64,000 nt of DNA from the NCBI GenBank assembly GCA_030041435.1, contig JASHNW010000058.1, forward strand, positions 1 to 64,000, written 5' to 3'. This DNA comes from Acidobacteriaceae bacterium (lineage in GTDB: Bacteria > Acidobacteriota > Terriglobia > Terriglobales > Acidobacteriaceae). A model generated the notes under the pieces. That model saw only the letters and a program-made list of their open reading frames with translations. It had not been told where the DNA came from and ran no database searches. The translations under genes and the position numbers were made by a program. How positions within the stretch are numbered: position 1 is the stretch's first letter; each line of letters starts with the position of its first letter. Positions 23,626 through 48,496 of the stretch are shown here, piece by piece.

Positions 23626-23703
23626 GAAAGCGCTGCCGGCGCCTGCCTGAACCTTCGCGCCGGCCGCGAATCCGCCTGCCAGGCATTCACTGGAGAAGAC
23701 CTG

Positions 23704-25220: not shown

Positions 25221-25247
25221 ATAAGTACCGGAAATTCGGAGGAAGAC

Positions 25248-26441: not shown

Positions 26442-26484
26442 GCGAAGCATGCTCACCGACCCACCTGCCGCAGAGGAGCGACGG

Positions 26485-27561: not shown

Positions 27562-27734
27562 GGCAGTAATGCTCTTCTCTCCGGATTTGCGCCTGCCCTG
27601 TTGGCGGTCCTGGGTTCCTCGAGAAGCACGGCATTCGGTCGGCATCGATCGCCGAGCGACTTAACGGGCGTCGATGAAGAGATCGGCAGAGTGCAAATCA
27701 GGCCGGCAGGGCAAGAGATGCGAAGCAGGAGAAA

Positions 27735-28757: not shown

Positions 28758-28848
28758 GGTGAGCGCAGGGAAATTCGCTGGTTGCACTTACCGGTTCATC
28801 GTCAAATCGACGATGGTGCGCATGGCAGTCAGCGAGAGGGGTCCCTGG

Positions 28849-29838: not shown

Positions 29839-29976
29839 CACGCTGTCGTATTCAGCGGAGCAGATTGCAGCGTCACCCATCTGCTACGAGATTGCCGCCG
29901 GAAGGAGCTTCGTGAGTCTCGCGAGACGGTTCTCGACTGCATATGGAAAGTGGTGGATGCTGCTAAGGTGAGCCAG

Positions 29977-32252: not shown

Positions 32253-32769
32253 GGCTGTCGGTCTGACGGTCAGTGTTCGATTGCGGCCGGGTGCCGGCGT
32301 CGCATCTTCGATGCGGGGAAGGCCGCGATTTTCGCCTTTTCGCCGCATCACGATGAGAAAAGCATTCTGTTTTTCGATCGAGTTCGCGTCGGCAGGACCT
32401 GCGTTGACGGCCTGTTCGGGGGCCGATTTGGAAAGGCCCCGAAAGTGGTCAGCGCTTTTCCCGGAGCTGAGGAATTCCATCATCCATGTCGCTCAATCGC
32501 GCTCATGAACCGCCTTCCGCAGTCGCTCGCTCGCGCGTATCGAGATCGCGGCGGCGATCCTGCATCGCTTTGTGAGAGCGCATGTTATCGCCATCGTTCC
32601 AGTGAATGAAAGCAGCGCCTTTTGCTTGACCGGTGAGGTTTGCAAATGAAACAATCCGGAATAACCCTCCCGCATCGACGATGCAACCTGTAGTTGACGC
32701 CAGGCCATCCGCGCCTCAGCCTGCCCCTTCGTTTTGCATGAACAGCCAACCTCCTGGAGCCCGAACCGA
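32253..32769. other. 517-base intergenic region before the export genes
   Basis: No gene is supported here; the open frames on both strands lack ribosome-binding sites and family features. Two imperfectly spaced copies of GCATC-N3-GATGC occur (32302-32314 and 32672-32684). The first extends to a six-base stem with a three-base loop (32301-32315). Its position suggests a regulatory leader for the wzc-wza transcript. No convincing -35/-10 pair was found. Confidence 0.5.
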
Positions 32770-35025
32770 GTGAATAACCCATCAGCCAGCGAATTTTCGC
32801 TCAAAGATATCGTGAGGATTCTCGACCGCAGGCGGCGAATCCTGGTGACAACTGCGGGCGTGGTTTTTCTGCTCGCGGTTTTGGCCTGCATCTTTATGAC
32901 TCGACGCTACAAAGCGGTGGGGGTATTTGAACTTCAGAAATCCAGCTCCGATTCTCTGGATCTCGAGGACATGATGGGAGAGTCTGTCGGCGGCGCCTCA
33001 GACTCGCTGTCGCTGAACACCGATCTCGACACCTTGTCGTCGATTCTGCAGTCGGATTCGCTCGCGCTTCAGGTAATCGGAGAGCTGAATCTGGAGCAGA
33101 ACAAGGATTTTCAGCCAGGCTTCAATCCGGTAGAAGTGATTGCCGGCTGGATTACGCCGGAGGGGCCTCAGGACCCCAGCGGGGCCAGCCTCGCAAATTC
33201 CCCGCATCGCCGCGAAAAAGCGCTCAAGATTTTCAGCAAACAGTTAAAGGTAACAGTGAACGCCGGCACTCGCCTGATTGAGGTTGACTACAGCAACCGC
33301 GACCCAAAGGTTGCCGCGGCTGTAGTCAACCATCTCATCCAGGCCCTGATCGACTATACGTTCCAGACCAAGTACATTGCGACCAGTCAGGTATCGACTT
33401 GGCTGGAGGGCCAGTTGGGCGATCTGCGCAAAGAGGATGAAGACCTGCAGGCCAAGGTTATAGCGCTGCAACAGGCGTCGGGCATCTACGGAGTGGGCGG
33501 TACCGACCTTCAGGGTAAACCCGTCGTATATAGTCCGACTCTCGACCGTCTGCAGGAATCGTCCGCCCTGCTCACCCAGGCGGAAATCAACGCTGTCATC
33601 AAAGGATCGATTTTCCAGGTTACTAAGACCGGCGATGCCGAACTGATATCTCAACTCGCCGGTACTACCCTGATGAGTACCACGGGCCAGGGTGTCGGGG
33701 ACTCGTTGTCGTTGATTCAGACTTTGAGATCGCAGGAAGCAACTCTTAAGGCGCAGATTGGCCAGGACGCTTCTCAGTTCGGCCCGCGGTATCCCAAACT
33801 GATTGAAGATCGCGCCTCGCTTCAAGGTGTCGAAGGCCAGCTGGACCAGGAAATCCAGCGCATTTCGGCACGCGCGAAGAATGACTATGAAATCGCACAG
33901 GGTACGTTAAAGGGCGCGAGGGCTACATACGACGCAGACCAGCAGGCGGCTGAGAAGCTGAACGACAAGACGATCGAATATATGATCCTTTCCAAGGAAG
34001 CGGAGGAGGCCGACGACCTGTATCAGGATCTCGTCAAAAGGCTCAAGGAGGCTGGAATTCTGGAAGGTCTCCAATCCACTGACATCACCAGTGTGGACAA
34101 GGCGTTGCCGCCAGCCAAGCCCGATAGCCCAAATGTTCCCCTCTACCTTGCACTGGGAGTAGGCCTGGGAATGTTCATGGGCGGCGGCGCCGCGCTGCTC
34201 GCCGACGCCCTCGACAATAAAATCCGGGGCACGGATGAAATTGAAAGCATGGGAATCCCACTCCTTGGCATCGTGCCTCAGGTCAGCTCCACGGAAATGG
34301 CTGGTAAGATCGTGCAGTTGGATTCCCGCGCTTCGGAGTTTGGAGAAGCGATTCGTCGCTTGCGCTCCGCTCTTTTAATAGCCCGCAGCGGGCATCCGCC
34401 CCAGGTTCTTCTGATTGCCAGCGGAAATCCAGGAGAGGGCAAGTCGACTCTTGCTTTGAATCTCGCTGTTGCTCTTGCCCAATACAATAAGAAAGTGCTT
34501 TTGATCGAAGCCGATCTCAGGCGCCCCGTGCTCCAGCGGCGCCTGCATCTGAAGGTCACGAGCGGGCTGAGCGAGCTTCTGGCGAATCAATCTGTCACAG
34601 AGGAGCCCGAGGCATTGGCAGACTTTCCCAACTTATACGTCCTTCCGGCAGGAGCGCCGCCGCCCTATCCCTCCGAGTTGCTCGGGGCAACGCCGTTACA
34701 GGCGCTTTTCGATCGATGGCGGCAGATGTATGACTTCGTAGTTATCGACTCTCCCCCCGTTCTTCCGGTAACCGATGTGCAGCTGTTGATCGCGCAGGCT
34801 GACGCTACGGTTCTCGTAGTGCGAGCCGGCAAGACGACTCGCGTCGGATTATCGCGCGCCTATCGGCTTCTCGTTCCGCATGTCAAGGATCCCGTTCAGC
34901 CTGCGATCGGTGCCCTGCTGAACGGCATTTCTACCCGGTCTGCCGCGTATTACGGCTACTACGGAACATATGGGTATAAGCGCTACTATTATCGGGATAA
35001 TGGAGATACAAATGATCAGGCTTAG
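32770..35025 (+). CDS. wzc: Polysaccharide co-polymerase / BY-tyrosine autokinase (Wzc type)
   Basis: A 751-residue inner-membrane protein fusing a Wzz chain-length domain to a bacterial tyrosine kinase. A membrane segment at about residues 24-43, a periplasmic coiled-coil-rich part (about 180-430) and a second membrane segment near 460 precede the kinase. Walker A SGNPGEGKST has Lys558, VLLIEADLRRP is the Walker A' strand and VVIDSPP has Asp660. The tail holds nine tyrosines in 15 residues (727-741), the autophosphorylation cluster that controls oligomerisation. GTG 32770 preceded by GGAG is preferred to TTG 32734. It works with the Wza-type protein directly downstream, whose start lies within this gene's tail. 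Confidence 0.92.
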   Translation: MNNPSASEFSLKDIVRILDRRRRILVTTAGVVFLLAVLACIFMTRRYKAVGVFELQKSSSDSLDLEDMMGESVGGASDSLSLNTDLDTLSSILQSDSLALQVIGELNLEQNKDFQPGFNPVEVIAGWITPEGPQDPSGASLANSPHRREKALKIFSKQLKVTVNAGTRLIEVDYSNRDPKVAAAVVNHLIQALIDYTFQTKYIATSQVSTWLEGQLGDLRKEDEDLQAKVIALQQASGIYGVGGTDLQGKPVVYSPTLDRLQESSALLTQAEINAVIKGSIFQVTKTGDAELISQLAGTTLMSTTGQGVGDSLSLIQTLRSQEATLKAQIGQDASQFGPRYPKLIEDRASLQGVEGQLDQEIQRISARAKNDYEIAQGTLKGARATYDADQQAAEKLNDKTIEYMILSKEAEEADDLYQDLVKRLKEAGILEGLQSTDITSVDKALPPAKPDSPNVPLYLALGVGLGMFMGGGAALLADALDNKIRGTDEIESMGIPLLGIVPQVSSTEMAGKIVQLDSRASEFGEAIRRLRSALLIARSGHPPQVLLIASGNPGEGKSTLALNLAVALAQYNKKVLLIEADLRRPVLQRRLHLKVTSGLSELLANQSVTEEPEALADFPNLYVLPAGAPPPYPSELLGATPLQALFDRWRQMYDFVVIDSPPVLPVTDVQLLIAQADATVLVVRAGKTTRVGLSRAYRLLVPHVKDPVQPAIGALLNGISTRSAAYYGYYGTYGYKRYYYRDNGDTNDQA

Positions 35026-35896
35026 AATCGCAACGGCGTTGATCCTTTGTGGGGCCTGCGCCTTCGCATGGGCGCAAAAAGAGAGTTTACTCATCGGTTC
35101 CGGCGATCTGGTCACCATCCAGGTTCTCGAGGCTCCCGAGCTAACACAACACGTTCGAGTCACCGACGCCGGCTATATCAATCTGTTAGTTGGCGGCGAT
35201 GTCAAGTTAGCCGGATTGACCCCGGAAGAGGCTGCCGCATCTGTAAAACAGGCGCTGATCGACGGACATTACCTGCTCACTCCGCATGTCGTAGTCACTG
35301 ACGATCAGCAAGTCACCCAAAACGTTACCGTCTTGGGACAGGTAAGGAACCCCGGGGCTTTCCCGATTGAAACCCCTCGAACTGTGCTCGACGTACTGGC
35401 GCTGGCTGGCGGCGTCACCGATGTGGCGGACAGGAGAATCACGATCCAGCGTCATGATAGCGGAGAAAAGATTGAATATTTCCTCTCCAATAAGTCGTCG
35501 ACAGCCCTCAATGAAAGCGTGAAAGTGGATCCAGGTGACACGATTCTCGTTCCTAAGATCGACGTTGTTTACATTATGGGCGATGTTGCCAGGCCCGGAG
35601 GATACCCGATGGCGACCAATGACGGCAAACTGTCCCTCCTCCAGGCTGTGGCCATGGCCGGTTCAACGCAGACCAGCGCGGTACCCAACGCCACTCGCCT
35701 GATCCGCAAGCAATCCGATGGCACCTTTGTGGAGATGAAAGTAGCACTGTCCAGGATGGCAAAAGGCAAGCAGGCGGACATTGCCCTTCGCCCGGACGAT
35801 ATTGTATATGTTCCGTTTAGCTATCTTAGAAACATGGCCACAAATCTCACTGGCCTGGTAGCAGCCGCCAGCACAGCGGTTATCTATCGGTATTAG
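35012..35896 (+). CDS. wza: Polysaccharide export outer-membrane protein (Wza type)
   Basis: A 294-residue protein with an N-terminal signal (cleavage probable after AWA near residue 21), a poly-export domain (about 25-105, with IGSGDLVTIQV) and two SLBB-like ligand-binding beta-grasp domains (about 110-260). It forms the outer-membrane outlet of the Wzc-Wza machine. No clear lipobox is seen, so it may not be lipidated, unlike E. coli Wza. The ATG at 35012 is preceded by GGAGATACAA and overlaps the end of wzc by 14 bases, which couples the two products. The C-terminal hydrophobic segment (NLTGLVAAASTAVIY) may insert in the outer membrane. Confidence 0.88.
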   Translation: MIRLRIATALILCGACAFAWAQKESLLIGSGDLVTIQVLEAPELTQHVRVTDAGYINLLVGGDVKLAGLTPEEAAASVKQALIDGHYLLTPHVVVTDDQQVTQNVTVLGQVRNPGAFPIETPRTVLDVLALAGGVTDVADRRITIQRHDSGEKIEYFLSNKSSTALNESVKVDPGDTILVPKIDVVYIMGDVARPGGYPMATNDGKLSLLQAVAMAGSTQTSAVPNATRLIRKQSDGTFVEMKVALSRMAKGKQADIALRPDDIVYVPFSYLRNMATNLTGLVAAASTAVIYRY

Positions 35897-36184
35897 CCGT
35901 TCACCGATCGGCCGCAGCGAGCGCCGGACGATCAGTGGCGTGTCGAAAGATAAGATTGCATTTCCTGCTTCTGGTTCCGCTGGAGCGGTGGCGCCCGATC
36001 TGCGGCCGGAAATCCGATGGGCCGCATTGCATGTGATAGCGACTCTTTGCATATTGGCGGAAATCTTGCATGTCGATTGAGTGCGGGTCCGCAGATCGAA
36101 TTCCACCGGGATCGAGGTTCCTTCACCGTTTTCCCGGAGTTCAGTTCATTTATCGATCGGCACAGAACTTGTTTGCGAGGCTCC

Positions 36185-37786
36185 GTGTCTTTTCCGGCTG
36201 ATTCAGAACAACAGCTCATTAGCTCGATGTCGTCCCCAGGCGTTCTGGCGCGGAATGCTGTGGCGAACCTCGTGCAGCCGGGGATCGCCTGGATCGTTGT
36301 ATTAGCCCTTCCTCCCCTCCTCGTTCGGACGCTCGACAAGTCGAGTTATGCGACCTGGATGCTGCTTCTGCAGATCAGTGCGTATATTACGCTGCTGAAT
36401 GCCAGCGTGCAGACCGTAATTATGCATTTCGTGGCGCGTGCGAGGAGCCTGCGTGACGACGAGTATATGGCTCGCATGCTCAGTAGCTCGGGGCTGGTTC
36501 TGCTCGTTACTGCGGCGATAGCCGTCGTTTTTATCGGAATTACTTCCTCGTACCTGCCGGTCTTGTTTCGCAGCATTCCACCGGCGGTGGTTCGCGAGGC
36601 AAGTCTTGCCATTTTGCTGATCGGATGCTCACTGGCGGTGGGTCACCCTTTCTCCGTTCTTGCCGGTGTATTCGGCGGCTACCAAAGGAGCGAGATTCCG
36701 GCAGTCGCGTCCGCAATTGGGAGGTTCAGCGGCGCCATTGGTGTGGGCTGGGCTGCGTATCATCGTCAGGGTCTGATACCTATGGCCATCTGGACTGCCG
36801 CGGGTAATCTACTTCTCCCGGCAGCCTATGTGGCGTTTTGGCTAAGATGGGGTAAACAGAAACTGTTTCGCATTTCGCGAATAACCGGCGCCGCTGTGCG
36901 CGAGTTTCTGGCCTTCTGGTCCGGGCTGCTGGTTTCTCAATTCTGTGGACTCCTCATAAGCGGACTGGACCTCCCAATCGTCGCCGCATTTGATTTCCCC
37001 GCGGCTGCCTACTACGCGGTTGCGTCTACGCTCGCCAACATTTTGGTGGTGCCTCAGTCCGCGATCATGGCCGCGATTCTTCCGGTCATATCCAGTCTGA
37101 GCGCTCATGCGTCGCCGCAGCGCCTTGGATTGGCGCTTGTTAAGGTCACCCGGTACGGAACTGCAATTCTCATCCTTCTCTCCCTGCCTCTCCTTTTTGG
37201 GATGAGCATCTTTCTGCATTTGTGGGTGGGCTCTAACTATGAGGTTCACGCCCTGCCGTTTGGGATTGTACTGGTCCTCGCTGTCCTCCTGCGGGCGTCC
37301 ATGCGTCCTTATTCGCAGGCATGTCTGAGTGCAGGACAGCAACAACGGGCGTTGATTTCGCCGATCGTAGAGGCCGCCGTGAACGTAGGTCTCAGTCTAT
37401 GGCTTGTGCACCGAATCGGAGCCCTGGGGGTAGCGCTCGGCACGCTGATAGGAGCCGTTGTTGGGGTCGTCGTGCACCTGACGGTTAGCATGCATTTTAC
37501 CAGCGCCATTCGAGTAGACCGAGTCGTGTTGGTTTCAAAGGGTATGCTGCGACCGCTGCTCTGTGCAGTTCCCGCCGTTCTGTTTCTGGTGGCGGTGCAG
37601 AGAAGGAATCCGCCGGCGCTTGTCCATGCCATCGCTATCGTCCTTGGCGAAATAATGGCTGCGGTGGCCCTGCTGCTGGGGAATTTCGATTCGCAGGAAA
37701 GGGTTCGATTTTTCGAGTTGGCGCGCCAATTCCCGAAGGCGATTGCCGGCGGTTCTGCTTCGGCGATTCGGGACGGCGCGTCCTGA
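36185..37786 (+). CDS. Polysaccharide flippase-like membrane protein (MOP/Wzx type)
   Basis: A 533-residue polytopic protein with about 12-14 helices and MOP-superfamily appearance (NAVANLVQPGIAWIVVLALP near the start; SGLDLPIVAAFDFPAAAYYAVAS mid-protein). It probably flips the lipid-linked repeat unit to the periplasm. The open frame begins at 36017, but the extension is unlike a flippase. GTG 36185 has GAGG four bases upstream, while ATG 36227 starts closer to the domain but has no ribosome-binding site; the first is chosen with low certainty. It is not a duplicate of the MurJ-type gene at 17611. A 288-base gap separates it from wza. Confidence 0.8.
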   Translation: MSFPADSEQQLISSMSSPGVLARNAVANLVQPGIAWIVVLALPPLLVRTLDKSSYATWMLLLQISAYITLLNASVQTVIMHFVARARSLRDDEYMARMLSSSGLVLLVTAAIAVVFIGITSSYLPVLFRSIPPAVVREASLAILLIGCSLAVGHPFSVLAGVFGGYQRSEIPAVASAIGRFSGAIGVGWAAYHRQGLIPMAIWTAAGNLLLPAAYVAFWLRWGKQKLFRISRITGAAVREFLAFWSGLLVSQFCGLLISGLDLPIVAAFDFPAAAYYAVASTLANILVVPQSAIMAAILPVISSLSAHASPQRLGLALVKVTRYGTAILILLSLPLLFGMSIFLHLWVGSNYEVHALPFGIVLVLAVLLRASMRPYSQACLSAGQQQRALISPIVEAAVNVGLSLWLVHRIGALGVALGTLIGAVVGVVVHLTVSMHFTSAIRVDRVVLVSKGMLRPLLCAVPAVLFLVAVQRRNPPALVHAIAIVLGEIMAAVALLLGNFDSQERVRFFELARQFPKAIAGGSASAIRDGAS

Positions 37787-37981: not shown

Positions 37982-38893
37982 ATGAACGACCGGACTTTGA
38001 TTTGGCCAACTTTTTATATCGTGGGAGCGGTGAAGTGCGGCACTACGTCTCTCTGGGCGCATCTAAAGAAACATCCGCAGGTGTTCCTGCCGGAGTTGAA
38101 AGAGCCACACTATTTTCTCGGGCCCCAACCCCCTTTGCAGGATGGCGACGAAGTGGTACGGGATCACTGCGCCGGCAACCTGGAGCGGTATCAGTCCCTG
38201 TATCGGCCGGCTGACGGCTATCCGGCCATTGGAGACGCGAGCCCTTCCTATTTATGGGAAGAAACCTCTGCGCGCAGCATTTATGCAGCGTGCCCAAAAG
38301 CGAGAATTATCATCAGTCTGCGTGACCCTGTGATGCGAGCTCATTCTCGATACCTTATGAACGTGACAGAACTGGGCACAGAGTCTCTGCCGTTCCACGA
38401 GGCGCTGCTGAAGGACCGAGAGCGCGCGAGGAAAGGATGGTGGACCTCACGCCTCTATGTCGAGTGTGGCCTGTACTACGCTCAGGTGCGTCGCTACCTG
38501 GAGACGTTTGGGAGAGAACAGGTATTAGTCATTCTGTTCGACGAATTGGCAAAGAGTCCGGAGGCATTTTATCTCAAAGTCACTCGTCACATCGGGATCG
38601 GTCCCTTGCAGGCCGATGCAACGGACCTTTCGTTGGCGAGAAACCAGTATCGCAAAGCGCGGCTTCCTTCCGTTCAGGGGTTCGTCAGGAAAGTAACGAC
38701 TGAGAAACTGCGGCAGAAACTGGCGCCCGCTCCCCTGAGGCAGCTGCTGGATCCGTTGCGTTTCGAACGAAAGAAGCCTGAGATAGACGAAGAGTCCCGA
38801 CGCTACCTCCAGCAGATATTCGAACCGGACATCGCACAACTGGAGGACCTTCTGGGGCGGAAGCTGCCTGAATTGAGAAAATCCTGGATCTAG
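37982..38893 (+). CDS. PAPS-dependent carbohydrate sulfotransferase
   Basis: A 303-residue sulfotransferase of the heparan N-sulfotransferase-like family, which moves sulfate from PAPS to a sugar hydroxyl or amine. The 5'-phosphosulfate-binding loop GAVKCGTTSL is at residues 15-24, and the 3'-phosphate-binding region SLRDPVMRAHSRY at 112-124, with the conserved Arg and Ser. PELKEPHYF near 37-45 matches the substrate-side signature. The ATG lies only 67 bases before cysD, which with the CysN-CysC fusion should make its cofactor PAPS. Cytoplasmic location is predicted, as no signal peptide is seen, so sulfate would be added before flipping. The acceptor sugar is unknown. Confidence 0.9.
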   Translation: MNDRTLIWPTFYIVGAVKCGTTSLWAHLKKHPQVFLPELKEPHYFLGPQPPLQDGDEVVRDHCAGNLERYQSLYRPADGYPAIGDASPSYLWEETSARSIYAACPKARIIISLRDPVMRAHSRYLMNVTELGTESLPFHEALLKDRERARKGWWTSRLYVECGLYYAQVRRYLETFGREQVLVILFDELAKSPEAFYLKVTRHIGIGPLQADATDLSLARNQYRKARLPSVQGFVRKVTTEKLRQKLAPAPLRQLLDPLRFERKKPEIDEESRRYLQQIFEPDIAQLEDLLGRKLPELRKSWI

Positions 38894-38960
38894 ATCAGTG
38901 TCTGGATTTGTGATTAACGTGTTCGTCGTTTCGTCTAACTCTTCACTTAGGAAAGGTTGA

Positions 38961-39857
38961 ATGAGCGGATACCTGGCAAGCCTTGAAGCGGAGTCCATCG
39001 AAATAATCCGGGAAGCAGTTGCTCTGGCCCAGAAGCCTGTGATGATGTACTCCATCGGCAAAGACTCCTCAGTGATGCTGCATCTTGCACGCAAGGCGTT
39101 TTGGCCGGCGCCGCCGCCCTTCCCTTTGCTGCACATCGACACAACCTGGAAGTTCCGCGAGATGATTGCTTTCCGCAACCGGATTGCAGCGGAGTCCGGG
39201 ATGAAGCTGCTGGTGCATACAAATCATCAGAGGATTGCCGAAGGAGTCAACCCGTTCACCTACGACTCCGATCGATATACCACGATGATGAAAACCGAGG
39301 CGCTGAAGCAGGCGCTCGATGCCGGCGCCTTCGATCTTATACTTGGCGGGGCGAGGCGCGATGAGGAGAAATCCCGCGCCAAGGAGCGCATCTTCTCGTT
39401 TCGCTCCGCAGGTCACCGGTGGGACCCCAAGCTCCAGCGCCCGGAGCTTTGGAATATATATAACGCTCGCATTCAACCCGGAGAGTCGGTTCGCGTCTTT
39501 CCTCTTTCTAACTGGACCGAGGCGGATATCTGGCAGTACATAGCCGACGAGAATATACCGATCGTGCAGTTATATTACGCGGCTCCGCGACCTGTTGTGA
39601 GGCGCTCCGGACAATGGATTATGGTCGACGACGACAGATTTCCACTCAATCCGGGAGAAACCCCCGAAATACGTGTCGTCCGCTTCAGAACCCTCGGCTG
39701 CTATCCTCTGACAGCTGCCGTTGAGAGCACGGCAACGACGATTGCCGAGATCGTACAGGAGACGCAGGCGGCACGAACGTCCGAGCGCCAGGGGCGGCTG
39801 ATCGACCACGACCAGGCGGCGTCAATGGAGAAGAAAAAACAGGAAGGATATTTCTGA
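38961..39857 (+). CDS. cysD: Sulfate adenylyltransferase subunit 2 (ATP sulfurylase, CysD)
   Basis: A 298-residue PP-loop ATPase subunit that makes APS from ATP and sulfate with its GTPase partner CysN. The PP-loop [10 protein letters not shown] is at residues 31-40, and the catalytic region [20 protein letters not shown] (about 130-150) and [15 protein letters not shown] (about 175-190) are intact. AGGAAAGG precedes the ATG. The stop and the next gene's start share bases (TGATG), so the subunits are made together. No CysH, CysI or CysJ reductase lies nearby, so the APS/PAPS made here is more likely for sulfation than for cysteine synthesis. Confidence 0.95.
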
Positions 39858-41710
39858 TGAAGGATACGCTTCGGTTTATCACCTGCGGCAGTGTCGACGA
39901 TGGCAAGTCAACGCTGATCGGAAGATTGCTGTGGGAGTCGAAGCAGGTTTTCGAGGACCACCTGTCAGCCCTGCAGAAGGACTCTACACGGTATGGGACT
40001 CAGGGCGAGGCGATCGATCTGGCGCTGCTTGTCGACGGCCTGCAGGCGGAAAGAGAGCAGAGCATTACCATCGACGTTGCTTATCGCTTCTTCGCAACAC
40101 CGCAAAGACGTTTCGTAGTGGCTGACACGCCAGGGCATGAACAATATACGCGCAACATGGCGACTGGCGCGTCAACGTCCGAGCTGGCCGTGTTGGTTGT
40201 GAACGCAAGCAAGGGTCTTCAGACGCAAACTCATCGGCATGCCAGAATTGTGGCAATGCTTGGCATCCGTCATCTTGTGATGGCAGTGAACAAAATGGAT
40301 CTCGTTGGCTGGGACGAGGCGATGTTCGGGCAGATCGTAAGGGAGTTCCAGCCACTGGTGAGTGAACTCCGGTTCGAGTCTTTTCAACCCATTCCGGTTT
40401 CCGCGCTGAATGGCGATAACATTACCGACCGCAGCGCTGCCACTCCGTGGTATAGCGGGCCAACGCTTTTGGAGTGTCTGGAAAAGGTTGATGTCACCCC
40501 TCGAGCGGATAGTCTGAAGTTTCGCATGGCAGTGCAGTGGGTCAACAGGCCGACTCAGGACTTTCGCGGCTATTGCGGCCGCATCGCATCCGGAGAGGTG
40601 AAAGTGGGCGACCGGGTACGCGTCGTTCCAGGCGGTATGGAAACGAAAATTCGGTCGATCGTTGGGTGGCAGACTGAACTCCCTGCGGCCGCTGCCGGCG
40701 ACTCGATCACAGTGTGTCTCGAGAACGAGGTTGACATCACACGCGGCAGCGTGATCGCGGCTGCTTCCGATCCTGCGGAGCTGAGTGATCAGTTTGAGTC
40801 AAGAGTGCTTTGCCTCTCCGATCACCCGCTGGTCGCTGGCCGCTCCTACCTGATGAACCTCCACACCTGCCAGGCGGTTGCCACAATCACATCGATTAAG
40901 TATCAGATTGACGCAAAAACCGGCAATCACCTGGCTGCCCGTTCCCTCGGCATGAATGATATCGGCGTGGTAAACATATCGACTGATCGTCCCGTACCGT
41001 TTGAACCCTACGACCGGTGCAGGCGACTGGGCAGCTTCATCCTGGTTGACCGGCTCACAAATAACACAGTCGGCGCAGGCATGATCGATTTCTCTCTGCG
41101 CCGGGCAGCGAATATCCACTGGCAGGCGGTGGATGTGAATAAGTCAGCCCGCTCCAGACAGAAGCTTCAGAAGCCAGTGTGTCTCTGGTTTACAGGCCTT
41201 TCGGCGTCGGGTAAGTCCACTGTTGCCAATCTGCTGGAAAAGCGTCTGTTCACCGCGGGAAAGCACACCTATATGCTCGATGGCGACAACGTGCGCCATG
41301 GCCTGAACAGAGATCTCGGCTTTTCAGAAGCCGATCGGGTCGAGAATATTCGTCGCGTAACTGAAGTTGCCAGATTGTTGGTCGATGCGGGTTTGGTAGT
41401 TCTTGTATCCTTCATTAGCCCCTATCGGGCGGAGCGCGAACTCGCGCGGTCGCGCTTCGAGTTAGGCGAGTTCGTCGAGGTGTTCGTTGATACTCCGCTG
41501 GAGGTATGCGAACGGCGCGACCCCAAGGGACTATATGCCAAGGCCCGGCGCGGTGAACTGATAAACTTCACCGGTATCGACAGTGACTACGAGCCGCCTG
41601 TTTCGCCCGAAATCCGACTCGATACTGTAAATGAAAGCGTAGACAAGTGCGTAGATCGCATTCTCTATGCCCTGGAACACGGATTGGCGACCAATATCTC
41701 AGAGAAGTAG
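39857..41710 (+). CDS. cysNC: CysN-CysC fusion: sulfate adenylyltransferase GTPase subunit plus APS kinase
   Basis: A 617-residue bifunctional protein like NodQ. Residues 1-420 are an EF-Tu-like GTPase driving ATP sulfurylase: G1 GSVDDGKS at 11-18, ADTPGHEQY (G3) near 90 and NKMD (G4) near 147. Residues about 430-617 are APS kinase, which phosphorylates APS to PAPS: P-loop GLSASGKS at 447-454, [15 protein letters not shown] near 476 and the FISPYR active-site serine segment near 520. With CysD it turns sulfate into PAPS in two steps. The fusion and its place right after a sulfotransferase argue for a dedicated sulfation pathway. Confidence 0.95.
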
Positions 41711-41803
41711 ACTTGTCTTACATAGAACTTATATCTGCAAGTATTTGTCCCGCAGTCTCCAGTCGTCCGAGAGGCAATACGGGGCAGAGAACTCGAAAGC
41801 GCA

Positions 41804-42832
41804 ATGCAAAACTATATCGTGATCGTGAATTGGAACGGATGGGAGGATACAATCGAGTGCCTGGAGTCGGTCTTACGCCTGAGAGATGCCGAATTTCGGA
41901 TCGTTCTCTGCGATAACGGGTCCGAAGATGGATCTTTGGACCGGATCAGAGAGTGGGCAGCTGGCACTTTGGCCGCGGAGCCTGCGAATCCAACTCTGTC
42001 GTCGCTGATTTCCCCGCCGTTTCCGAAACCGGTCCCATATCGTGAAATCTCCCGCCAGGAGGCAGAACTCGATGCGCCGATGGGAGATGAGAAGCTCATT
42101 CTGATCCGGGTCGGTGCAGACCTGATGTACGCCGGGGGTAACAATGTGGGGTTGTGCTACGCGCTTCGCGATCCCGCTGCGCGCTATTTCTGGATTCTGA
42201 ATAACGATACAGTTGTCGAGCCGGCGGCGCTGGCGGCAATGGTCGATTTCATGAAAGTCAGCCCCGATGTGGGAATGTGCGGCTGCCTGAATCTGTCCTA
42301 TTACAACCCCAACGAGGTGCAGGCTCAGGGGGGCAGGCGTTACAACCGCTGGATGGGGCGCCCGATTTTGCAATCGTGCAGCCGCAGCGAGCTCAACGGC
42401 CGCACTGAGACGCTGGATTACGTCCTCGGATGTTCTATGCTGGTAACCCGCGAGTTCGTCGAGCAGATCGGATTGATCGACGAATCCTACTTCATCTATT
42501 TCGAAGAACTTGACTGGGCTGAGCGTGCCAAAGGGAAATTCACGCTTGGCTACGCCCCGAACAGCGTCATCTATCACAAAGAGGGAGCGTCCATCGGCAC
42601 GAATGCCAGCCGTGAGAAGCGCAGTCTTACCTCGGAGAAGTACCAGTCGCGCAACCGGGTGGTCTTCGCGAAGAGATACTGTCCCTGGACGCTGCCGACC
42701 GTGCTCATGACGGTATGCGCCACGGCTGTTCACCGCTTGTGCCTGGGAGACAGGGTGCGCGCAGCAGCGATTCTTGCTTGGGCGCTCAAGGGCATGGCAG
42801 CCGGACGAGTTGCGGACCTAGAATCGACATAA
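41804..42832 (+). CDS. Glycosyltransferase family 2
   Basis: A 342-residue GT2 enzyme. YIVIVNWNGWEDTIECLES starts the GT-A domain, CDNGSEDGS gives the nucleotide-binding loop, and WILNNDTVVEP near 131 is the metal-binding region of the rhamnosyltransferase subgroup. GCSMLVTREFVEQIGLIDESYFIYFEE follows in separate motif blocks, with the ED-type catalytic acid replaced by EELDW. Family length is typical. It sits 93 bases after the sulfate-activation genes. The acceptor and donor are not deducible; rhamnose or heptose are plausible. Confidence 0.85.
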   Translation: MQNYIVIVNWNGWEDTIECLESVLRLRDAEFRIVLCDNGSEDGSLDRIREWAAGTLAAEPANPTLSSLISPPFPKPVPYREISRQEAELDAPMGDEKLILIRVGADLMYAGGNNVGLCYALRDPAARYFWILNNDTVVEPAALAAMVDFMKVSPDVGMCGCLNLSYYNPNEVQAQGGRRYNRWMGRPILQSCSRSELNGRTETLDYVLGCSMLVTREFVEQIGLIDESYFIYFEELDWAERAKGKFTLGYAPNSVIYHKEGASIGTNASREKRSLTSEKYQSRNRVVFAKRYCPWTLPTVLMTVCATAVHRLCLGDRVRAAAILAWALKGMAAGRVADLEST

Positions 42833-43050
42833 CCCCGTGGTTATGCACCGTGTACGGGAGTGTTGGCGCCGCCAGGAGATGTGCAGGAAGGTTTTTTCGA
42901 CCTTTTCCCATGGTTCGCTGATGCAGCGTTTCCCGAAAAGGCCAATGCCTTACAAGATACGGCCGCTATCTCCTCATGGTGGGGGCGCATCGCGCTCTGA
43001 AGCTGCAGACAGCCAACTTATTACTTGGATATAGCTGAAAGATACCCGAT

Positions 43051-44085
43051 ATGAAGATTCGCTCGCGAGCGCCGTTGCGTCTCGGTTTGGCTGGTGGCGG
43101 AACCGACGTATCCCCCTACTGCGACGAATTCGGCGGGGCCATTCTGAACGCCACCATCGGCCATTACGCCTACGCCTCGATCGAACCGCTCGAGAGCGGC
43201 GGGGTGGAATTCGCCTCTTCGGATCAGCAGCAAACGGTGCGCTACGCCGAGGCAGACCGATTCGCGCCCGACGGCAGCCTCGATCTGCTGAAGCATGTTC
43301 ACAACTATGCCGTGGAGCATTTCGCCGAAGGCAAACCTCTGAGCCTGCGTATGACCACGCGTGTGGACGTGCCTTCCGGTTCGGGGCTGGGCGGATCTTC
43401 GACTCTGGTGGTGGCCGTCCTGAAGGCATATGCGGAGTGGCTCAGTTATCCCGTCGACGACTATGAGCTGGCAAACGCGGCGTATGTTGTGGAGCGCGAA
43501 CATGCGGGGCTGAAAGGCGGACGCCAGGATCAATATGCCGCCGCCTTCGGTGGATTCAACTTCATGGAATTCGGCCGCGATGGGCGCGTGCTCGTGAATC
43601 CGCTGCGCATCGCGCCTGGCGTCGTCTCGGAGTTGGAGGCCTCGCTCCTGCTCTTCTACACGGGCGCTTCGAGAGCATCCGCGGCCATCATCGAAGAGCA
43701 GGCCCGCAATGTGGAAACCGGGAATTCGCAGGCGGTGGAGGCTATGCACCAGATCAAGCAGGAAGCCCTGCGCATGAAGGAATCCCTCCTGCGCGGCGAC
43801 TTCGGACAGTTGCACGAGGTTCTGCGCGCAAGCTGGGATGCCAAGCGTCGCATGGCCAGCGGCATCGTCAATGACCGTATTGAAACGCTCTACAACCGCG
43901 CCCTGGAGGCTGGAGCATACTGCGCCCGGATTTCCGGCGCCGGCGGCGGCGGGTTCATGATGTTTCTCACCGATCCCATGCGCCAACTGCGCGTAGCGGA
44001 GTCGCTGCGCAGCAGCGAGAATTTGGGCATCGTCTACGGGTGCCACTTTACGCACACCGGGGCGCAGGCATGGAGGGTTCGATGA
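43051..44085 (+). CDS. hddA: D-glycero-alpha-D-manno-heptose-7-phosphate kinase (GHMP family)
   Basis: A 344-residue GHMP kinase that phosphorylates D-glycero-D-manno-heptose 7-phosphate at C1 in the GDP-heptose pathway. The N-terminus RSRAPLRLGLAGGGTDV is the HddA hallmark, the ATP loop VPSGSGLGGSST is at residues 107-118, and the third GHMP motif CARISGAGGGGFMMF is near 295. The stop overlaps the gmhA start (ATGA). Together with GmhA and HddC it marks GDP-D,D-heptose synthesis rather than the ADP-heptose branch used for lipopolysaccharide cores. Confidence 0.93.
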   Translation: MKIRSRAPLRLGLAGGGTDVSPYCDEFGGAILNATIGHYAYASIEPLESGGVEFASSDQQQTVRYAEADRFAPDGSLDLLKHVHNYAVEHFAEGKPLSLRMTTRVDVPSGSGLGGSSTLVVAVLKAYAEWLSYPVDDYELANAAYVVEREHAGLKGGRQDQYAAAFGGFNFMEFGRDGRVLVNPLRIAPGVVSELEASLLLFYTGASRASAAIIEEQARNVETGNSQAVEAMHQIKQEALRMKESLLRGDFGQLHEVLRASWDAKRRMASGIVNDRIETLYNRALEAGAYCARISGAGGGGFMMFLTDPMRQLRVAESLRSSENLGIVYGCHFTHTGAQAWRVR

Positions 44086-44678
44086 AGGAATTCGTTCGCC
44101 GGCAGATACAGAATTCGGTGGATACTCTGAGTCTCGTCCTCTCTGACGACGCTATTCACGCCTGTCTGGCCGCCGAAGCGGAGCGCATCGCCTCAGCCCT
44201 GCGGAATGGGCGAAAACTGATGATCGCCGGAAACGGCGGAAGCGCAGCGGACGCCCAGCACCTCGCGGCGGAGTTTGTCAGCCGGCTTACCATCGACCGC
44301 CCCGCGCTCCACGCCGTCGCGCTCACTACCGATACCTCGATCCTTACCGCGGTGGCCAACGACTACGGCTACGACCGCGTTTTCATGCGCCAGATCGAAG
44401 CCATCGGACAGCCGGGCGACATCTTCCTCGGCATTTCCACTTCGGGGAACTCGCCCAACATCCTGTGTGCGCTTCAGCAGTGCCGGAATATGCGCATCCG
44501 CGCTCTCGGCCTGACTGGCGGCGCCGGCGGCAAAATGACAGATCTCTGCGATGCCCTGCTCGTCGTGCCGTCCCGGATCACGCAGAATATCCAGGAAGCG
44601 CACTTGATGTTGGAGCATATCCTTTGTGGTCTGGTAGAGCGTCATTACTTCGGAAAAGAGCGCTTTCCCGAAGGTTAG
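44082..44678 (+). CDS. gmhA: Sedoheptulose-7-phosphate isomerase
   Basis: A 198-residue SIS-fold isomerase that converts sedoheptulose 7-phosphate to D-glycero-D-manno-heptose 7-phosphate, the first heptose step. The sugar-phosphate loop GNGGSAADAQH is at residues 50-60 and GISTSGNSPN is near 118; the C-terminal HLMLEHILC helix carries the catalytic His/Glu region. ATG 44082 with GGAGGG upstream overlaps hddA and is chosen over the longer frame starting at 44040. It precedes the nucleotidyltransferase by 25 bases. Confidence 0.94.
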   Translation: MKEFVRRQIQNSVDTLSLVLSDDAIHACLAAEAERIASALRNGRKLMIAGNGGSAADAQHLAAEFVSRLTIDRPALHAVALTTDTSILTAVANDYGYDRVFMRQIEAIGQPGDIFLGISTSGNSPNILCALQQCRNMRIRALGLTGGAGGKMTDLCDALLVVPSRITQNIQEAHLMLEHILCGLVERHYFGKERFPEG

Positions 44679-44703
44679 AGAGTCACCGAGAGAGGTTCCG
44701 GTT

Positions 44704-45426
44704 TTGGAAGCAATCGTTCTGGCGGGAGGCCTGGGCACCAGGCTTCGCTCGAGACTCAGCGGCGTCCCCAAGCCTATGGCGCCGGTGGGCGGCCGGCCGT
44801 TCCTGGAAATTCTCCTCGACCGGCTTGTCGAAGCTGGCTTTCGCCGGACGCTGCTGTCCGTCGGCTATCTGGGTAACGTAATTGCCGATCACTTCGGCAG
44901 CAGCTGGCGCGGTATGGGGCTCGATTATGTCGTGGAAGACAGCCCTCTCGGAACCGGCGGAGCCATCCGCCGGGTGCTGCCGCTCGTCGAAGAAACATCG
45001 GCATTCGTTCTCAACGGAGATACCTGGCTCGACGCGGATTATCGCGCGATGGACGATCTGCATCGATCGTCGCCGGTGGATCTGACCCTCGCGCTCAGTC
45101 GCGTCCCAGATATGGCGCGTTATGGGGGGATAGAGCTGAATGGAGACAGGGTCGCCGGCTTCATCGAAAAAGGCCGCACGGGAGCGGGCTGGATCAACGC
45201 GGGCGTCTACATCATGTCACGGGATTTTCCCTGGCCGGCGAATCTCGCGGAGAAGTTCTCCTTTGAGACCGACGTTCTCTTTCCCCTGCTGCCGGCGCTC
45301 AGGCACGCGGTCTTCCTGAGTCATGGTTACTTTCTCGATATCGGCGTCCCCGAAGACCTCGATCGGGCGCAGACGGAGCTGGGGAACCTGAAGCGCGCCC
45401 CGTCTGCTGAAGCCGGAAGCCACTGA
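44704..45426 (+). CDS. hddC: D-glycero-alpha-D-manno-heptose 1-phosphate guanylyltransferase-like nucleotidyltransferase
   Basis: A 240-residue nucleotidyltransferase that probably makes GDP-D-glycero-alpha-D-manno-heptose. LAGGLGTRL at residues 6-14 is the nucleotide loop, with VPKPMAPV at 21-28 and a metal-binding LNGDTW near 100. TTG is the start codon, with GAGAGAGG upstream. Position after hddA and gmhA makes the HddC assignment likely, though the family alone would also allow other hexose-1-phosphate transferases. The expected 1,7-bisphosphate phosphatase (GmhB) is not needed in this route if HddA gives a 1,7-bisphosphate that is then dephosphorylated elsewhere; no such phosphatase was recognised in the window. 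Confidence 0.85.
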   Translation: MEAIVLAGGLGTRLRSRLSGVPKPMAPVGGRPFLEILLDRLVEAGFRRTLLSVGYLGNVIADHFGSSWRGMGLDYVVEDSPLGTGGAIRRVLPLVEETSAFVLNGDTWLDADYRAMDDLHRSSPVDLTLALSRVPDMARYGGIELNGDRVAGFIEKGRTGAGWINAGVYIMSRDFPWPANLAEKFSFETDVLFPLLPALRHAVFLSHGYFLDIGVPEDLDRAQTELGNLKRAPSAEAGSH

Positions 45427-45534
45427 CATGGCGGCCACAATGAATATCATCTTTGCAGCCGGTCGTCTGCTTGCCTCGCGCGCGCGGCATGCCGTTCAAA
45501 TATTTGGCTGTTCGGCAACTAACAGGAGAGAACT

Positions 45535-46224
45535 GTGATCCTGGCATCCATGAAGAGAAGCCTTGCTCCCCTGAAGGGCCGGGTCAGAACTGAAACCCGG
45601 AGGCTGGTGCCATTTGTTCGTCGCCCCATGCGCTTTCCCACTTATGCGCCTGCAGTCCGCGAGCGCGTCGAAGCTCTTTCCGACGACATACGTTATGCCA
45701 TGCTTGCTCTTGCAATTCAGCGTCTCGAAGCGGAAGGAATCGAGGGCGCATTCGCAGAGCTTGGTGTCTACAGAGGAGTCACGAGCAGGTTCATTCATTT
45801 GCAGGCGCCGGACCGTCGACTGTATTTATTCGATACGTTTCAGGGCTTTCCCGAGGCGGATCTCGGATCTGTCAGGGATTACCGTTTCAAAGACACGTCG
45901 CAGGATGAAGTGGCTCAACGCATCGGCGATACAAAGAACGTAATTTTCCGCGCCGGATATTTCCCTGTGACTGCCACCGGCCTGGAACAGGAGCGCTTCG
46001 CGCTCGTGATGCTTGATTTCGATCTGTATCAGCCGGCTCTGGAAGCCTTCCGGTTCTTTTATCCGCGCCTGGTCTCGGGCGGCTATTTCTTTATGCACGA
46101 CTTCAACAGCCCGGAATCGGATCATGCGATCTCCCGGGCTGCGTCCGAATTCCTGAGCGACAAGCCTGAATTCCTGATCGAGATGCCCGATGAGTGGGGA
46201 TCGGCAGTGTTTCGCAAGGCCTGA
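45535..46224 (+). CDS. TylF/MycF-family O-methyltransferase
   Basis: A 229-residue SAM-dependent methyltransferase of the TylF (macrocin O-methyltransferase) family, which methylates hydroxyls of deoxysugars. The SAM-binding FAELGVYRGVTS is near residue 69; LFDTFQGFPEAD near 98 and MLDFDLYQP near 158 are typical, the acidic residues binding metal. GTG 45535 follows AACAGGAG. Unlike the two earlier methyltransferases it sits next to the heptose genes, so methylation of a heptose or deoxyhexose of the repeat unit is possible but inferred. Confidence 0.87.
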   Translation: MILASMKRSLAPLKGRVRTETRRLVPFVRRPMRFPTYAPAVRERVEALSDDIRYAMLALAIQRLEAEGIEGAFAELGVYRGVTSRFIHLQAPDRRLYLFDTFQGFPEADLGSVRDYRFKDTSQDEVAQRIGDTKNVIFRAGYFPVTATGLEQERFALVMLDFDLYQPALEAFRFFYPRLVSGGYFFMHDFNSPESDHAISRAASEFLSDKPEFLIEMPDEWGSAVFRKA

Positions 46225-46302
46225 GAATAGTCAGAGCGCGCTCGGCATCGATCGGTTCCGAATACACCGGATGCGCAGGGATTGCGCCACGAGGAAATCG
46301 GA

Positions 46303-47508
46303 ATGGAAATCTTGTTCGCGGCTGGTCATTTGCCTGCCTGCTGTGGGCGGCAGGCTGGGCAAAAGACCAGTTATCACATCTGCGAATTCCTGGCGCGGCG
46401 CCACCAGCTGCATTTTCTCGGCTTCATTCCCGCCGATGAAATCGCGGAGCTCAACCAAGCTGACATGGAAATGTTCGCTTCATGGGAACTCACTCCGGTG
46501 ACGAGCCGAGTTCGCGTGATTGGCGCTCTTTCCGCCCCGCTGCTTCCGCTGTCCATTGCCGCGAGGCACTCGCATGGCTTCCGAAGAAGGCTGCAGAAAA
46601 TTGTGCGGGAGCGGCAGCCCGACGTCGTCATCTTCGACCACACTGCGATGTTCCAGTACGCGGCCGGCGTACCCGCATCCGTGGTTACCGTCGGCAGCGC
46701 GCACGACATGATGACTCAGTCGTGGCAGCGGAAGAAATCGCAGTCGGCGAATCCGGTCTCCAGGCTGCTCCTCAGTGCCGAATTCCGCCGCATGGAGCGT
46801 TGGGAGAAAACGGCTTGGGCGCGACTCGATCTTGTTGTAGCCCACAACGGCAAGGATAAACAGCTGGTTGAAACCCTGGAACCGCGCGCGCGTGTGATAG
46901 CGATCGATGCGTGGATGTCGCCGCCTGCATGCTATCCGGCGTCGCATCGCGAACCCGGAGCCATGATCTTCTGGGGCGCCATGGATCGCCCGGAGAACGT
47001 AGATGCAGCACGCTGGGCGGCGAGGGAAATTGTGCCCTCCATCCGGCGCTCCGTGCCCCGCGCAAAACTGTACATTGCCGGCAGCCGCGGCGAACAACTG
47101 GCGCCGGAGTTCGCCGGCAGAGACGACATTGTAGTTACCGGCTTTGTTGAGGATGTCGGAGCTCTTATGTCCCGCATGGAAATCGCGTTGTTGCCGCTGC
47201 GCCTCGGCGCCGGCATCAAGATCAAAACGCTGGAGTGCATGGCGGCCGGCCTCCCAGTCGTGACTACCTCCGTCGGAGCGGAAGGGGTCAACGGCATACA
47301 CGGAACTCACTATCAGGTGGCCGATGCTGCGGAGAAAATCGCCGCGCACGCGATCGAGTTCCTGAGCGACCCATCGGCTGCGCGCGAGATGGGTGCGCGC
47401 GCAAAGCAGTTCATCGCCGAAAGCCGCGACTTCGCCGCCCGCATGAGTAGCTTCGAAGAGGTTTTGGTGGATGTTGTCGCCGAGCGGCGAAATGGACAGA
47501 AGCGGTAA
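46303..47508 (+). CDS. Glycosyltransferase, GT-B fold (GT1/GT4 type)
   Basis: A 401-residue GT-B glycosyltransferase. The C-terminal half has the nucleotide-sugar binding region with IFWGAMDRPENV and VTGFVEDVGALMSRMEIALLPLR motif blocks and KTLECMAAGLPVVTT with the family's Glu. The N-terminal half holds the acceptor domain. ATG 46303 with GAGGAA upstream is used; the longer frame back to 46282 starts at TTG. This is the third glycosyltransferase in the locus and the only one of GT-B type. Donor and acceptor are not known. Confidence 0.83.
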   Translation: MEILFAAGHLPACCGRQAGQKTSYHICEFLARRHQLHFLGFIPADEIAELNQADMEMFASWELTPVTSRVRVIGALSAPLLPLSIAARHSHGFRRRLQKIVRERQPDVVIFDHTAMFQYAAGVPASVVTVGSAHDMMTQSWQRKKSQSANPVSRLLLSAEFRRMERWEKTAWARLDLVVAHNGKDKQLVETLEPRARVIAIDAWMSPPACYPASHREPGAMIFWGAMDRPENVDAARWAAREIVPSIRRSVPRAKLYIAGSRGEQLAPEFAGRDDIVVTGFVEDVGALMSRMEIALLPLRLGAGIKIKTLECMAAGLPVVTTSVGAEGVNGIHGTHYQVADAAEKIAAHAIEFLSDPSAAREMGARAKQFIAESRDFAARMSSFEEVLVDVVAERRNGQKR

Positions 47509-47686
47509 TGGCGACCGCTCCTTGTTCAAAATCTTAGGATGCAAATGGCTAACCAGACAGGGCGCGACTTTGCTGACGGGGTATCGGCTGCTGCGGAAGG
47601 CGCCTTTGCGCCGAGATGCACATAGCCCGCCTTCTGTTATTCCTGAAGCAGGGTATGGATCTCTGAGTCGTGCAGCCGAGGAGTGA

Positions 47687-48496
47687 ATGATCGATATTGA
47701 GTCGGAGAGCTGGTTGGGAGATCTTCTCCCGAACGTCGTTGCTGTAGCTCGCGAAGCGGGCGAGGCAATTATGAAAGTGTATGGTGACCTGAATCCGGCC
47801 ATAGAGTATAAGCGGGACAACTCGCCCCTGACTCAGGCTGACCTTGCGTCTCACCATATCATCCTCAATCGGCTAAGTCAGTTATCCCCGCAGTGGTCTG
47901 TGCTGTCCGAGGAATCTCAGGAGATCCCCTTCGAACGGCGCAGCGCATGGGAGCATTTCTGGCTGGTGGATCCTCTGGATGGGACGAAAGAGTTTCTCCG
48001 GCGTAATGGAGAATTCACGGTGAATATCGCTCTGGTGGAAAGGAATGTTCCGATTCTCGGCGTTGTGTATGCTCCTGCGATCGATAAGCTGTACTATGCG
48101 GCCAAACGTACAGGCGCATGGAAATCGGAGAAGGGCTCCAGTGCACGCCTGAAAGTCACCCGGGCGGTGAACGGTACAACTCGTGTGGTGGTGAGCCGCT
48201 CGCATGGCTCCGGTGAAGAAAATCTTGACCGCTTTACGGGAGGAGGACAGAACTGCGAATTCGTGTCGATGGGCTCTTCGCTTAAGTTCTGTCTCATTGC
48301 CGAAGGCGCGGCCGATATCTATCCGCGCACCGGTCCAACGATGGAGTGGGATACGGCTGCTGCCCATTGCATCGTGGAAGAGGCCGGGGGGACAGTTACC
48401 GATCTGGAAGGAAAACCGTTGACCTATAACAAGCCGGTCCTGTTGAACCCGGGGTTCGTCGTCAACGGTGCACAGCGAGTATCTCCGCCGCGGTGA
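47687..48496 (+). CDS. cysQ: 3'(2'),5'-bisphosphate nucleotidase (CysQ)
   Basis: A 269-residue inositol-monophosphatase-fold enzyme that hydrolyses PAP, the product left after PAPS-dependent sulfation, preventing inhibition of the sulfotransferase. Metal-binding motifs are intact: SEES near residue 75, VDPLDGTKEF at 94-103 and EWDTAAAH near 224. CGAGGAG precedes the ATG. It is in the same orientation as the sulfotransferase-cysD-cysNC group, 6 kb downstream, and completes the sulfation cycle. CysQ also occurs in cysteine metabolism, but no other sulfate-assimilation genes are present. Confidence 0.93.
   Translation: MIDIESESWLGDLLPNVVAVAREAGEAIMKVYGDLNPAIEYKRDNSPLTQADLASHHIILNRLSQLSPQWSVLSEESQEIPFERRSAWEHFWLVDPLDGTKEFLRRNGEFTVNIALVERNVPILGVVYAPAIDKLYYAAKRTGAWKSEKGSSARLKVTRAVNGTTRVVVSRSHGSGEENLDRFTGGGQNCEFVSMGSSLKFCLIAEGAADIYPRTGPTMEWDTAAAHCIVEEAGGTVTDLEGKPLTYNKPVLLNPGFVVNGAQRVSPPR

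Follow-up and report, generated by a model that had tools for sequence, protein, structure and literature searches.

We analysed a 64,000 bp stretch of DNA (hereafter the window, positions 1-64,000 of contig JASHNW010000058.1) from an Acidobacteriaceae bacterium (GCA_030041435.1), in which a sulfotransferase gene and the sulfate-activation genes cysD, cysNC and cysQ lie among genes for exopolysaccharide (EPS) synthesis. We consider it fairly likely that this is a locus for a predicted sulfated EPS with the general sulfate-activation genes of the cell built into it. Judged from its gene content, the sulfated-EPS locus is probably real and functional, and no sulfate-activating genes besides cysD and cysNC of the window were found in the genome, whose assembly (5.77 Mb in 134 contigs) is 99.7% complete, so that a missed gene copy is unlikely, if not impossible. 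The support comes from conserved active-site residues and the fold of the sulfotransferase, from the single copies of the activation genes, from the proximity of APS kinase genes to sulfotransferase relatives and from two capsule precedents, and is laid out below.

The four genes are uninterrupted open reading frames (ORFs) on one strand, as the initial annotation had placed them:

37982..38893 (+), sulfotransferase of 303 aa, dependent on 3'-phosphoadenosine 5'-phosphosulfate (PAPS) (Pfam Sulfotransfer_3/Sulfotransfer_1)
38961..39857 (+), CysD, ATP sulfurylase small subunit (NCBIfam CysD models, 504.9 against a cut-off of 413 and 485.8 against 396.6)
39857..41710 (+), CysN-CysC fusion (CysNC), ATP sulfurylase large subunit plus kinase of adenosine 5'-phosphosulfate (APS) (PRK05506, 936.7 against 715; apsK, 257.0 against 138.7)
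47687..48496 (+), CysQ, phosphatase of 3'-phosphoadenosine 5'-phosphate (PAP) (Pfam; TIGR01331, 304.4 against a cut-off of 228.8)

The sulfotransferase reaches 49.7 bits for Sulfotransfer_3 (cut-off 27) and 34.6 for Sulfotransfer_1 (cut-off 22). The cysD and cysNC frames are intact and both ATP sulfurylase subunits pass curated models, as expected of a sulfate-activating complex; for CysQ, a further model, PRK10931, was not reached (275.1 against a cut-off of 379). The chemistry first proposed for the four proteins is thus supported by family matches above curated cut-offs. The gene for a Wzx-like protein is followed after 195 bp by the sulfotransferase gene and this, after 67 bp, by cysD, which overlaps cysNC by 1 bp; cysNC and cysQ are 5,976 bp apart, with six sugar genes between them. 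The placement of the four genes inside an EPS locus also holds, with Wzc-like, Wza-like and glycosyltransferase genes around them (Poly_export 1.2e-17, AAA_31 1.9e-13).

The PAPS-binding motifs of the sulfotransferase are intact, K18, G20, T21 and E41 being invariant in 10 of 10 aligned sequences, the window's included. K18 and E41 align with Lys162 and Glu184 of 3-OST-3 (numbering offset worked out by hand), in which Glu184 is described as the catalytic base and mutants of Lys162 and Glu184 as having less than 1% activity (PMC8341778). The AlphaFold2 model of the protein (predicted local distance difference test score, pLDDT, 80.6) is nearest to 3RNL, an Alicyclobacillus sulfotransferase (Z 30.0; 2.0 Å over 243 residues), followed by the NDST1/3-OST enzymes (Z 22.5-24.7); two polyketide-pathway domains give Z 16.3 and 15.4, and protein or small-molecule sulfotransferases at most 14.9. 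Foldseek likewise returned 3RNL first and heparan-sulfate enzymes next. The Pfam match, the PAPS-binding lysine loop and the fold identify the protein as a PAPS-dependent sulfotransferase, and the fold together with the putative catalytic glutamate E41 agrees with the heparan-sulfate (NDST/3-OST) type. The modelled fold is of the carbohydrate type, a common fold being no proof of a sugar acceptor.

The copy number of the activation genes was assessed across the whole genome. For PF01583 (APS kinase), CysNC of the window is the single match; PF01507 has two, CysD of the window plus a CysH encoded on another contig (C129); and PF01747 (Sat) has none. The CysN part of a joined query met only stretches of 25-30% identity elsewhere in the genome. 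Five further sulfotransferase-family genes are present (contigs C131, C117, C124, C68 and C34) and could use the PAPS of this locus as well. Two sulfite/nitrite reductase-family genes were found (C129 and C10), neither of which passes the NCBIfam sulfite reductase models; the one on C10 passes NirA-family and CobG models and the one on C129 none. The initial annotation had noted the absence of cysH, cysI and cysJ and had concluded that the PAPS is not for cysteine synthesis. The absence stands for the window as scanned and fails for the genome, where CysH and the two reductase-family genes lie on other contigs; the window-based argument falls with it, and the conclusion may nevertheless hold, as this CysH looks like an APS reductase. 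The protein has CC and ECGIH motifs, with a C-x-x-C (GCAPC) seen by eye, and we take the CC...ECGIH cysteine pattern to mark the iron-sulfur type of reductase, the cluster being reported to distinguish enzymes that use APS from those that use PAPS. The protein is 72% identical to the CysH of a genus-mate (G097) whose genome has a listed completeness of 100% and gave no match for APS kinase, so that the CysH of that genome should work on APS, without PAPS. A comparable case is described in C. glutamicum, which is without APS kinase and whose CysH acts as an APS reductase (PMC1266029). Since the CysH of our genome is, on these sequence features, apparently an APS reductase, cysteine synthesis would branch at APS, before PAPS; APS is probably shared, and the PAPS made by the CysC part probably goes to sulfotransferases.

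The remaining features of the EPS locus are as follows:

21705..30747 (+), upstream EPS part: nucleotidyltransferase, epimerases, RmlC-type epimerase, FAD oxidoreductase, acyltransferase, glycosyltransferase family 2 (GT2), two methyltransferases (Pfam)
30903..32252 (+), probable Wzy polymerase (by position and 7 hydrophobic segments alone)
32734..35025 (+), Wzc-like chain-length/tyrosine-kinase protein (AAA_31, 51.2 against 27)
34970..35896 (+), Wza-like export protein (Pfam Poly_export, SLBB)
36017..37786 (+), probable Wzx flippase of MOP fold (11 hydrophobic segments; low-confidence model)
41804..42832 (+), GT2, between cysNC and cysQ (Pfam)
43051..44085 (+), GHMP kinase, HddA-like (heptose-7-phosphate kinase; Pfam; NCBIfam HddA 388.6 bits, below the cut-off of 600)
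44040..44678 (+), SIS-domain isomerase, GmhA-like (sedoheptulose-7-phosphate isomerase; Pfam; gmhA 192.3, below the cut-off of 209.45)
44704..45426 (+), nucleotidyltransferase, HddC-like (Pfam; NCBIfam HddC 179.6, below the cut-off of 300)
45535..46224 (+), TylF-type methyltransferase (Pfam)
46282..47508 (+), glycosyltransferase group 1 (GT1) (Pfam)

The Wza and Wzc partners of a Wzx/Wzy-dependent pathway are present (Poly_export and AAA_31 above cut-off), the Wzc-like protein falling just under the cut-offs for Wzz (24.7 against 25.5) and GNVR (26.8 against 27.7). The Wzx-like protein has no Pfam family above cut-off, no PHROG match and a weak NCBIfam matE match (21.3 against 147.4), and its sequence match to the Wzx of a Planctomycetota locus discussed below is weak; its model (pLDDT 60.4) aligns to MATE transporters with Z up to 25.3 and to WzxE with Z 20.4-21.6. 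The Wzy candidate matched no Pfam, NCBIfam or PHROG family. Of the Wzy/Wzx/Wzc/Wza locus first described, the Wzc-like and Wza-like proteins are supported by Pfam, and the Wzx and Wzy labels follow from position, hydrophobicity and, for Wzx, a low-confidence fold. The three heptose-type proteins lie under their NCBIfam cut-offs, which makes GDP-heptose a lead rather than a result.

Promoter-like sites in the region 35800-48700 were about as frequent as in shuffles (5 against a mean of 4.6), and the sole one on the plus strand (45423-45450) falls where the HddC-like gene ends. In the same region, terminator-like sites numbered 17 against a shuffle mean of 10.3 (sd 3.7), with none on the plus strand between genes of the block. 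Rfam gave nothing above gathering score in the window or in three of the other loci (L132, L133 and L138). A protein with a NusG-type N-terminal domain is encoded near the end of the EPS locus (50082-50504, minus strand); specialised NusG relatives are antiterminators of long polysaccharide operons. Directly after cysQ lies a gene for a right-handed beta-helix/pectate-lyase-like protein (48612-49976, minus strand), possibly acting on polysaccharide, and just upstream of the EPS locus one for a TauE/SafE membrane protein of the sulfite exporter family (19294-20046, minus strand), which could move sulfur compounds. The window also holds a gene for a biopterin-dependent aromatic amino acid hydroxylase (58871-59644).

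In the mechanism we propose, CysD and the CysN part would convert sulfate and ATP to APS, and the CysC part would phosphorylate APS to PAPS. The soluble sulfotransferase would then transfer the sulfuryl group to a sugar hydroxyl or amino group, and we infer that the acceptor is most likely the lipid-linked repeat unit and that transfer precedes flipping; in a simple hydropathy scan the enzyme showed no hydrophobic segment, in line with the earlier suggestion that sulfation is cytoplasmic. The Wzx-like protein would flip the sulfated repeat unit, and CysQ would clear PAP. APS would be the branch point at which CysH takes its share for cysteine, the CysDN complex serving both uses, while PAPS would go to the window sulfotransferase and probably to others too.

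Relatives of the sulfotransferase were sought in a family sample of 200 genomes, our own included, as well as in a scan of genome contigs. The scan gave no confirmed relative with the sulfotransferase sequence alone; with an alignment of its relatives, at least 570 stretches were confirmed, from which the best 80 were kept. In the family sample, 19 of 200 genomes, our own included, have a sulfotransferase match, and a strong APS kinase match is found in 17 of these 19 against 62 of the 181 others (Fisher p 3e-6; hand counts, setting aside eight genomes whose only APS kinase match was of E 2e-5 or weaker, namely G002, G017, G035, G058, G079, G091, G104 and G133). In three of these 19 genomes (our own, G000, at the window, plus G161 and G196) the sulfotransferase and APS kinase genes are no more than 10 kb apart, many of the assemblies being fragmented. 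One of these, G161, carries within about 9 kb a sulfotransferase, a 590-aa APS kinase ORF of Sat/CysC length, a CysQ relative (34%) and a Wzx-type protein. Flanks of the best 80 of at least 570 loci, many of them shorter than 10 kb and several from related, non-independent Bacillota, contain an APS kinase in 15 cases (including a weak one, L213, of 28% identity), against a chance expectation of 0.33 that assumes one such gene per 4 Mb, and CysQ in 4; neither CysD nor CysN was found there at E 1e-6. Within these 80 loci the association with APS kinase extends over several phyla.

Several observations weigh against the reading we favour. Arg166 and Asp189, likewise reported to be needed in 3-OST-3 (PMC8341778), are without counterpart in the alignment with the window sulfotransferase. 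Among the scanned proteins of the locus, none was recognisable as a priming glycosyltransferase. Two of the 19 sulfotransferase-positive genomes (G130 and G186) have no APS kinase match. The Acidithiobacillus relatives (L152 and L154; about 46% identity, the closest outside the genus among the matches listed) are flanked by RlpA- and peptidase-type genes, and in two sister species the sulfotransferase relatives sit in glycan-type neighbourhoods on a contig other than that of cysDNC. As for CysH, it passes the generic models PRK02090 (245.4 against 154) and TIGR00434 (189.1 against 165.1), and NCBIfam leaves its assignment as APS or PAPS reductase unsettled.

The neighbourhoods in Acidithiobacillus and the sister species speak for a different explanation, namely that an ordinary assimilation operon became ringed by EPS genes through rearrangement or transfer, the polysaccharide being unsulfated and the sulfotransferase acting on something else, such as a lipid or part of the cell wall. 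A YkuD-type gene stands beside the sulfotransferase relative in L152, and no EPS genes were found among the scanned neighbours of L152 (six) and L154 (four); with neighbours of cell-wall type, the acceptor need not be an EPS. Independently of our locus, these neighbourhoods hint that in Acidithiobacillus the family may be connected with sulfation of the cell wall or envelope. In the sister species G033, two neighbouring sulfotransferase copies lie by an FkbM methyltransferase and a GT1 gene (L054, 13987-16157), away from the contig of the cys operon. A tree of 27 chosen rows groups the window sulfotransferase with the copies of its genus-mates, on a branch whose support (94/92) narrowly misses the tool's star. 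The cys genes themselves form a contiguous, compact cysD-cysNC-cysQ operon in two genus-mates (G033 and G149) and in one genome from another genus (G008), with no relative of the window sulfotransferase in the 17-20 kb fetched around each; in G181, cysD and cysNC are neighbours and the contig stops after them. G033 and G149 share an upstream radical SAM gene and have a porin-like gene nearby (sub-threshold Pfam), and no EPS export gene was found among the scanned flanking genes (three in G033, three in G149 and two in G008); in G008, however, a gene close to cysQ matches GT2 weakly, below threshold. What this explanation does not readily accommodate is the arrangement in the window, where the sulfotransferase gene has cysD close by on one side and the Wzx-like gene on the other and six sugar genes sit inside cysNC-cysQ, nor the fold nearest to 3RNL and then to glycan sulfotransferases, nor an occurrence of the family near APS kinase far above expectation. 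We regard it as unlikely, though it is the rival that deserves most weight.

The history of the cys genes can be followed in part from identity and composition. Identity between the window and its genus-mates is 88-89% for CysD, 80-82% for CysNC and, with G149 and G033, 66-69% for CysQ. Among the 12 genus genomes, CysNC with the APS kinase part occurs in four; three others carry a CysD or CysD-CysN type that lacks this part (in one case truncated by a contig end), and the remaining five have neither type at E 1e-8. Two genus genomes (G167 and G195, each listed as more than 90% complete) have no PF01507 match and hence neither CysD nor CysH. The EPS region (21705-48496) has a G+C content of 57.5%, whereas the remainder of the window has 62.1% and seven further genomic stretches have 60.0-63.5%, and G+C at third codon positions (GC3) is 0.615-0.676 in the window's cys genes against 0.82-0.85 in those of G033 and G149 and 0.73 in cysNC of G008. 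In composition, then, the cys genes resemble the EPS locus around them, which fits either arrival with that locus or long residence in it. Within the locus, the heptose-type block (43051-45426) has a G+C content of 61.0-62.5% against 53.9-57.2% in the cys, wz and sulfotransferase genes, and may be a separate insertion; the GT1 gene is at 61.3%. Best identities of EPS proteins to those of other genus genomes are 49% (Wza), 34% (HddA-like) and 29% (GT1); relatives as distant as these do not suggest a locus conserved throughout the genus. A clean insertion site was considered and rejected: the genes flanking the operon in the sister species (radical SAM, porin-like) have relatives in our genome on separate contigs (C87 and C131), so that no simple excision or insertion can be demonstrated. 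More tentatively, the EPS locus may have taken over the only sulfate-activation operon of the cell, a scenario to which we give a modest chance and which draws on the splitting of the cys genes by sugar genes and on their lower G+C content; the genes would be co-transcribed, and EPS expression would then control APS for cysteine as well as PAPS.

A further alternative keeps the sulfated polysaccharide and lets CysH use PAPS; everything that CysDNC makes would then be shared, with the branch at PAPS as in E. coli. The passing scores for PRK02090 and TIGR00434 speak for it. The iron-sulfur-type motifs and the 72% identity to the CysH of G097, a genome with no APS kinase match, speak for an APS reductase instead, and the APS-specific model TIGR02055 (195.6 against a cut-off of 235.3) outscores the PAPS-specific TIGR02057 (159.1 against 254.2), both lying below cut-off, the latter further. 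We find this alternative distinctly improbable.

Least probable of all, and rejected on copy number, is the dedicated, self-contained module of the initial annotation, making PAPS solely for the polysaccharide: the gene set and order suit it, as does an APS kinase unneeded for cysteine if CysH reduces APS, but the searches of the genome found one CysD, one APS kinase, no Sat and no other ATP sulfurylase, so that cysD and cysNC are the sole assimilation copies found (a result the annotation itself had named as weakening its claim), CysH is present, five other sulfotransferase-family genes lie elsewhere, and the compact operons of G033, G149 and G008 have no neighbouring sulfotransferase relative within the 17-20 kb fetched.

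The favoured reading, a sulfated-EPS locus with the general activation genes built in, has close precedents. The capsule cluster of the gammaproteobacterium Cobetia marina KMM 1449 likewise is reported to contain a cysN/cysC fusion, cysD, cysQ, a sulfotransferase and dTDP-sugar genes; it differs in having an ABC-transporter (ATP-binding cassette) capsule system, a sulfate permease and a determined sulfated structure, whereas the window has a Wzx-like protein (PMC11766843). In Vibrio sp. KMM 8419, cysC, cysN, cysD and sulfotransferases lie in the capsule cluster, and its authors regard cys genes plus sulfotransferases as a hallmark of making sulfated polysaccharides; the cys genes of that cluster are second copies, export is by an ABC transporter and the main text does not mention cysQ, while the copies in the window are the only ones found (PMC11641403). 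With a sulfotransferase, assembly and export genes and PAPS genes as in Cobetia and Vibrio, the window has the gene content of a sulfated capsule or EPS cluster. The synechan cluster xss of the cyanobacterium Synechocystis PCC 6803 is also of the Wzx/Wzy type with sulfotransferases, but the term PAPS is absent from its main text and no PAPS genes are described in the text consulted; sulfate was measured there (PMC8205485). Among the best 80 loci, the closest parallel is the uncharacterised Planctomycetota locus L206 (JACPHJ010000093.1), with a Wzz-type protein, a nucleotidyltransferase, Wzx, Wzy, glycosyltransferases, two sulfotransferases and a protein of the inositol-monophosphatase family that shares 48% identity with CysQ of the window, all in one run of genes; its PAPS would come from a Sat-CysC fusion, not from CysD plus CysNC. 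For the sharing of activation, the comparison is cysD-cysNC of M. tuberculosis, where one CysDNC is described as feeding an APS reductase and, via APS kinase, sulfotransferases, with CysQ degrading PAP; the acceptors there are bacterial metabolites, and a polysaccharide locus is not described (PMC3141025).

Two papers state that sulfated polysaccharides are restricted to cyanobacteria among bacteria (PMC8205485, PMC13390465), a view that the marine capsules of Cobetia and Vibrio, as reported, contradict (PMC11766843, PMC11641403). A review counts six producing genera (PMC11625862), a Wzx/Wzy-type cluster with sulfotransferases has been proposed in Actinoplanes (PMC13390465), and sulfated exopolymers are reported in Pontiella (PMC7356697). 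Our literature search, which covered titles and the starts of abstracts and left most subscription journals outside, found no sulfated acidobacterial polysaccharide. The combination of genes is thus already published; the differences here are the lineage, a Wzx-like protein rather than ABC export, and single-copy cys genes that are split by sugar genes. A complete set of sulfation genes in an acidobacterial locus, together with the occurrence of this sulfotransferase family near APS kinase in several phyla, would widen the list of bacteria with sulfated polysaccharides, and the single-copy cysDNC raises the question of how cells balance the supply of cysteine against the sulfation of a polymer.

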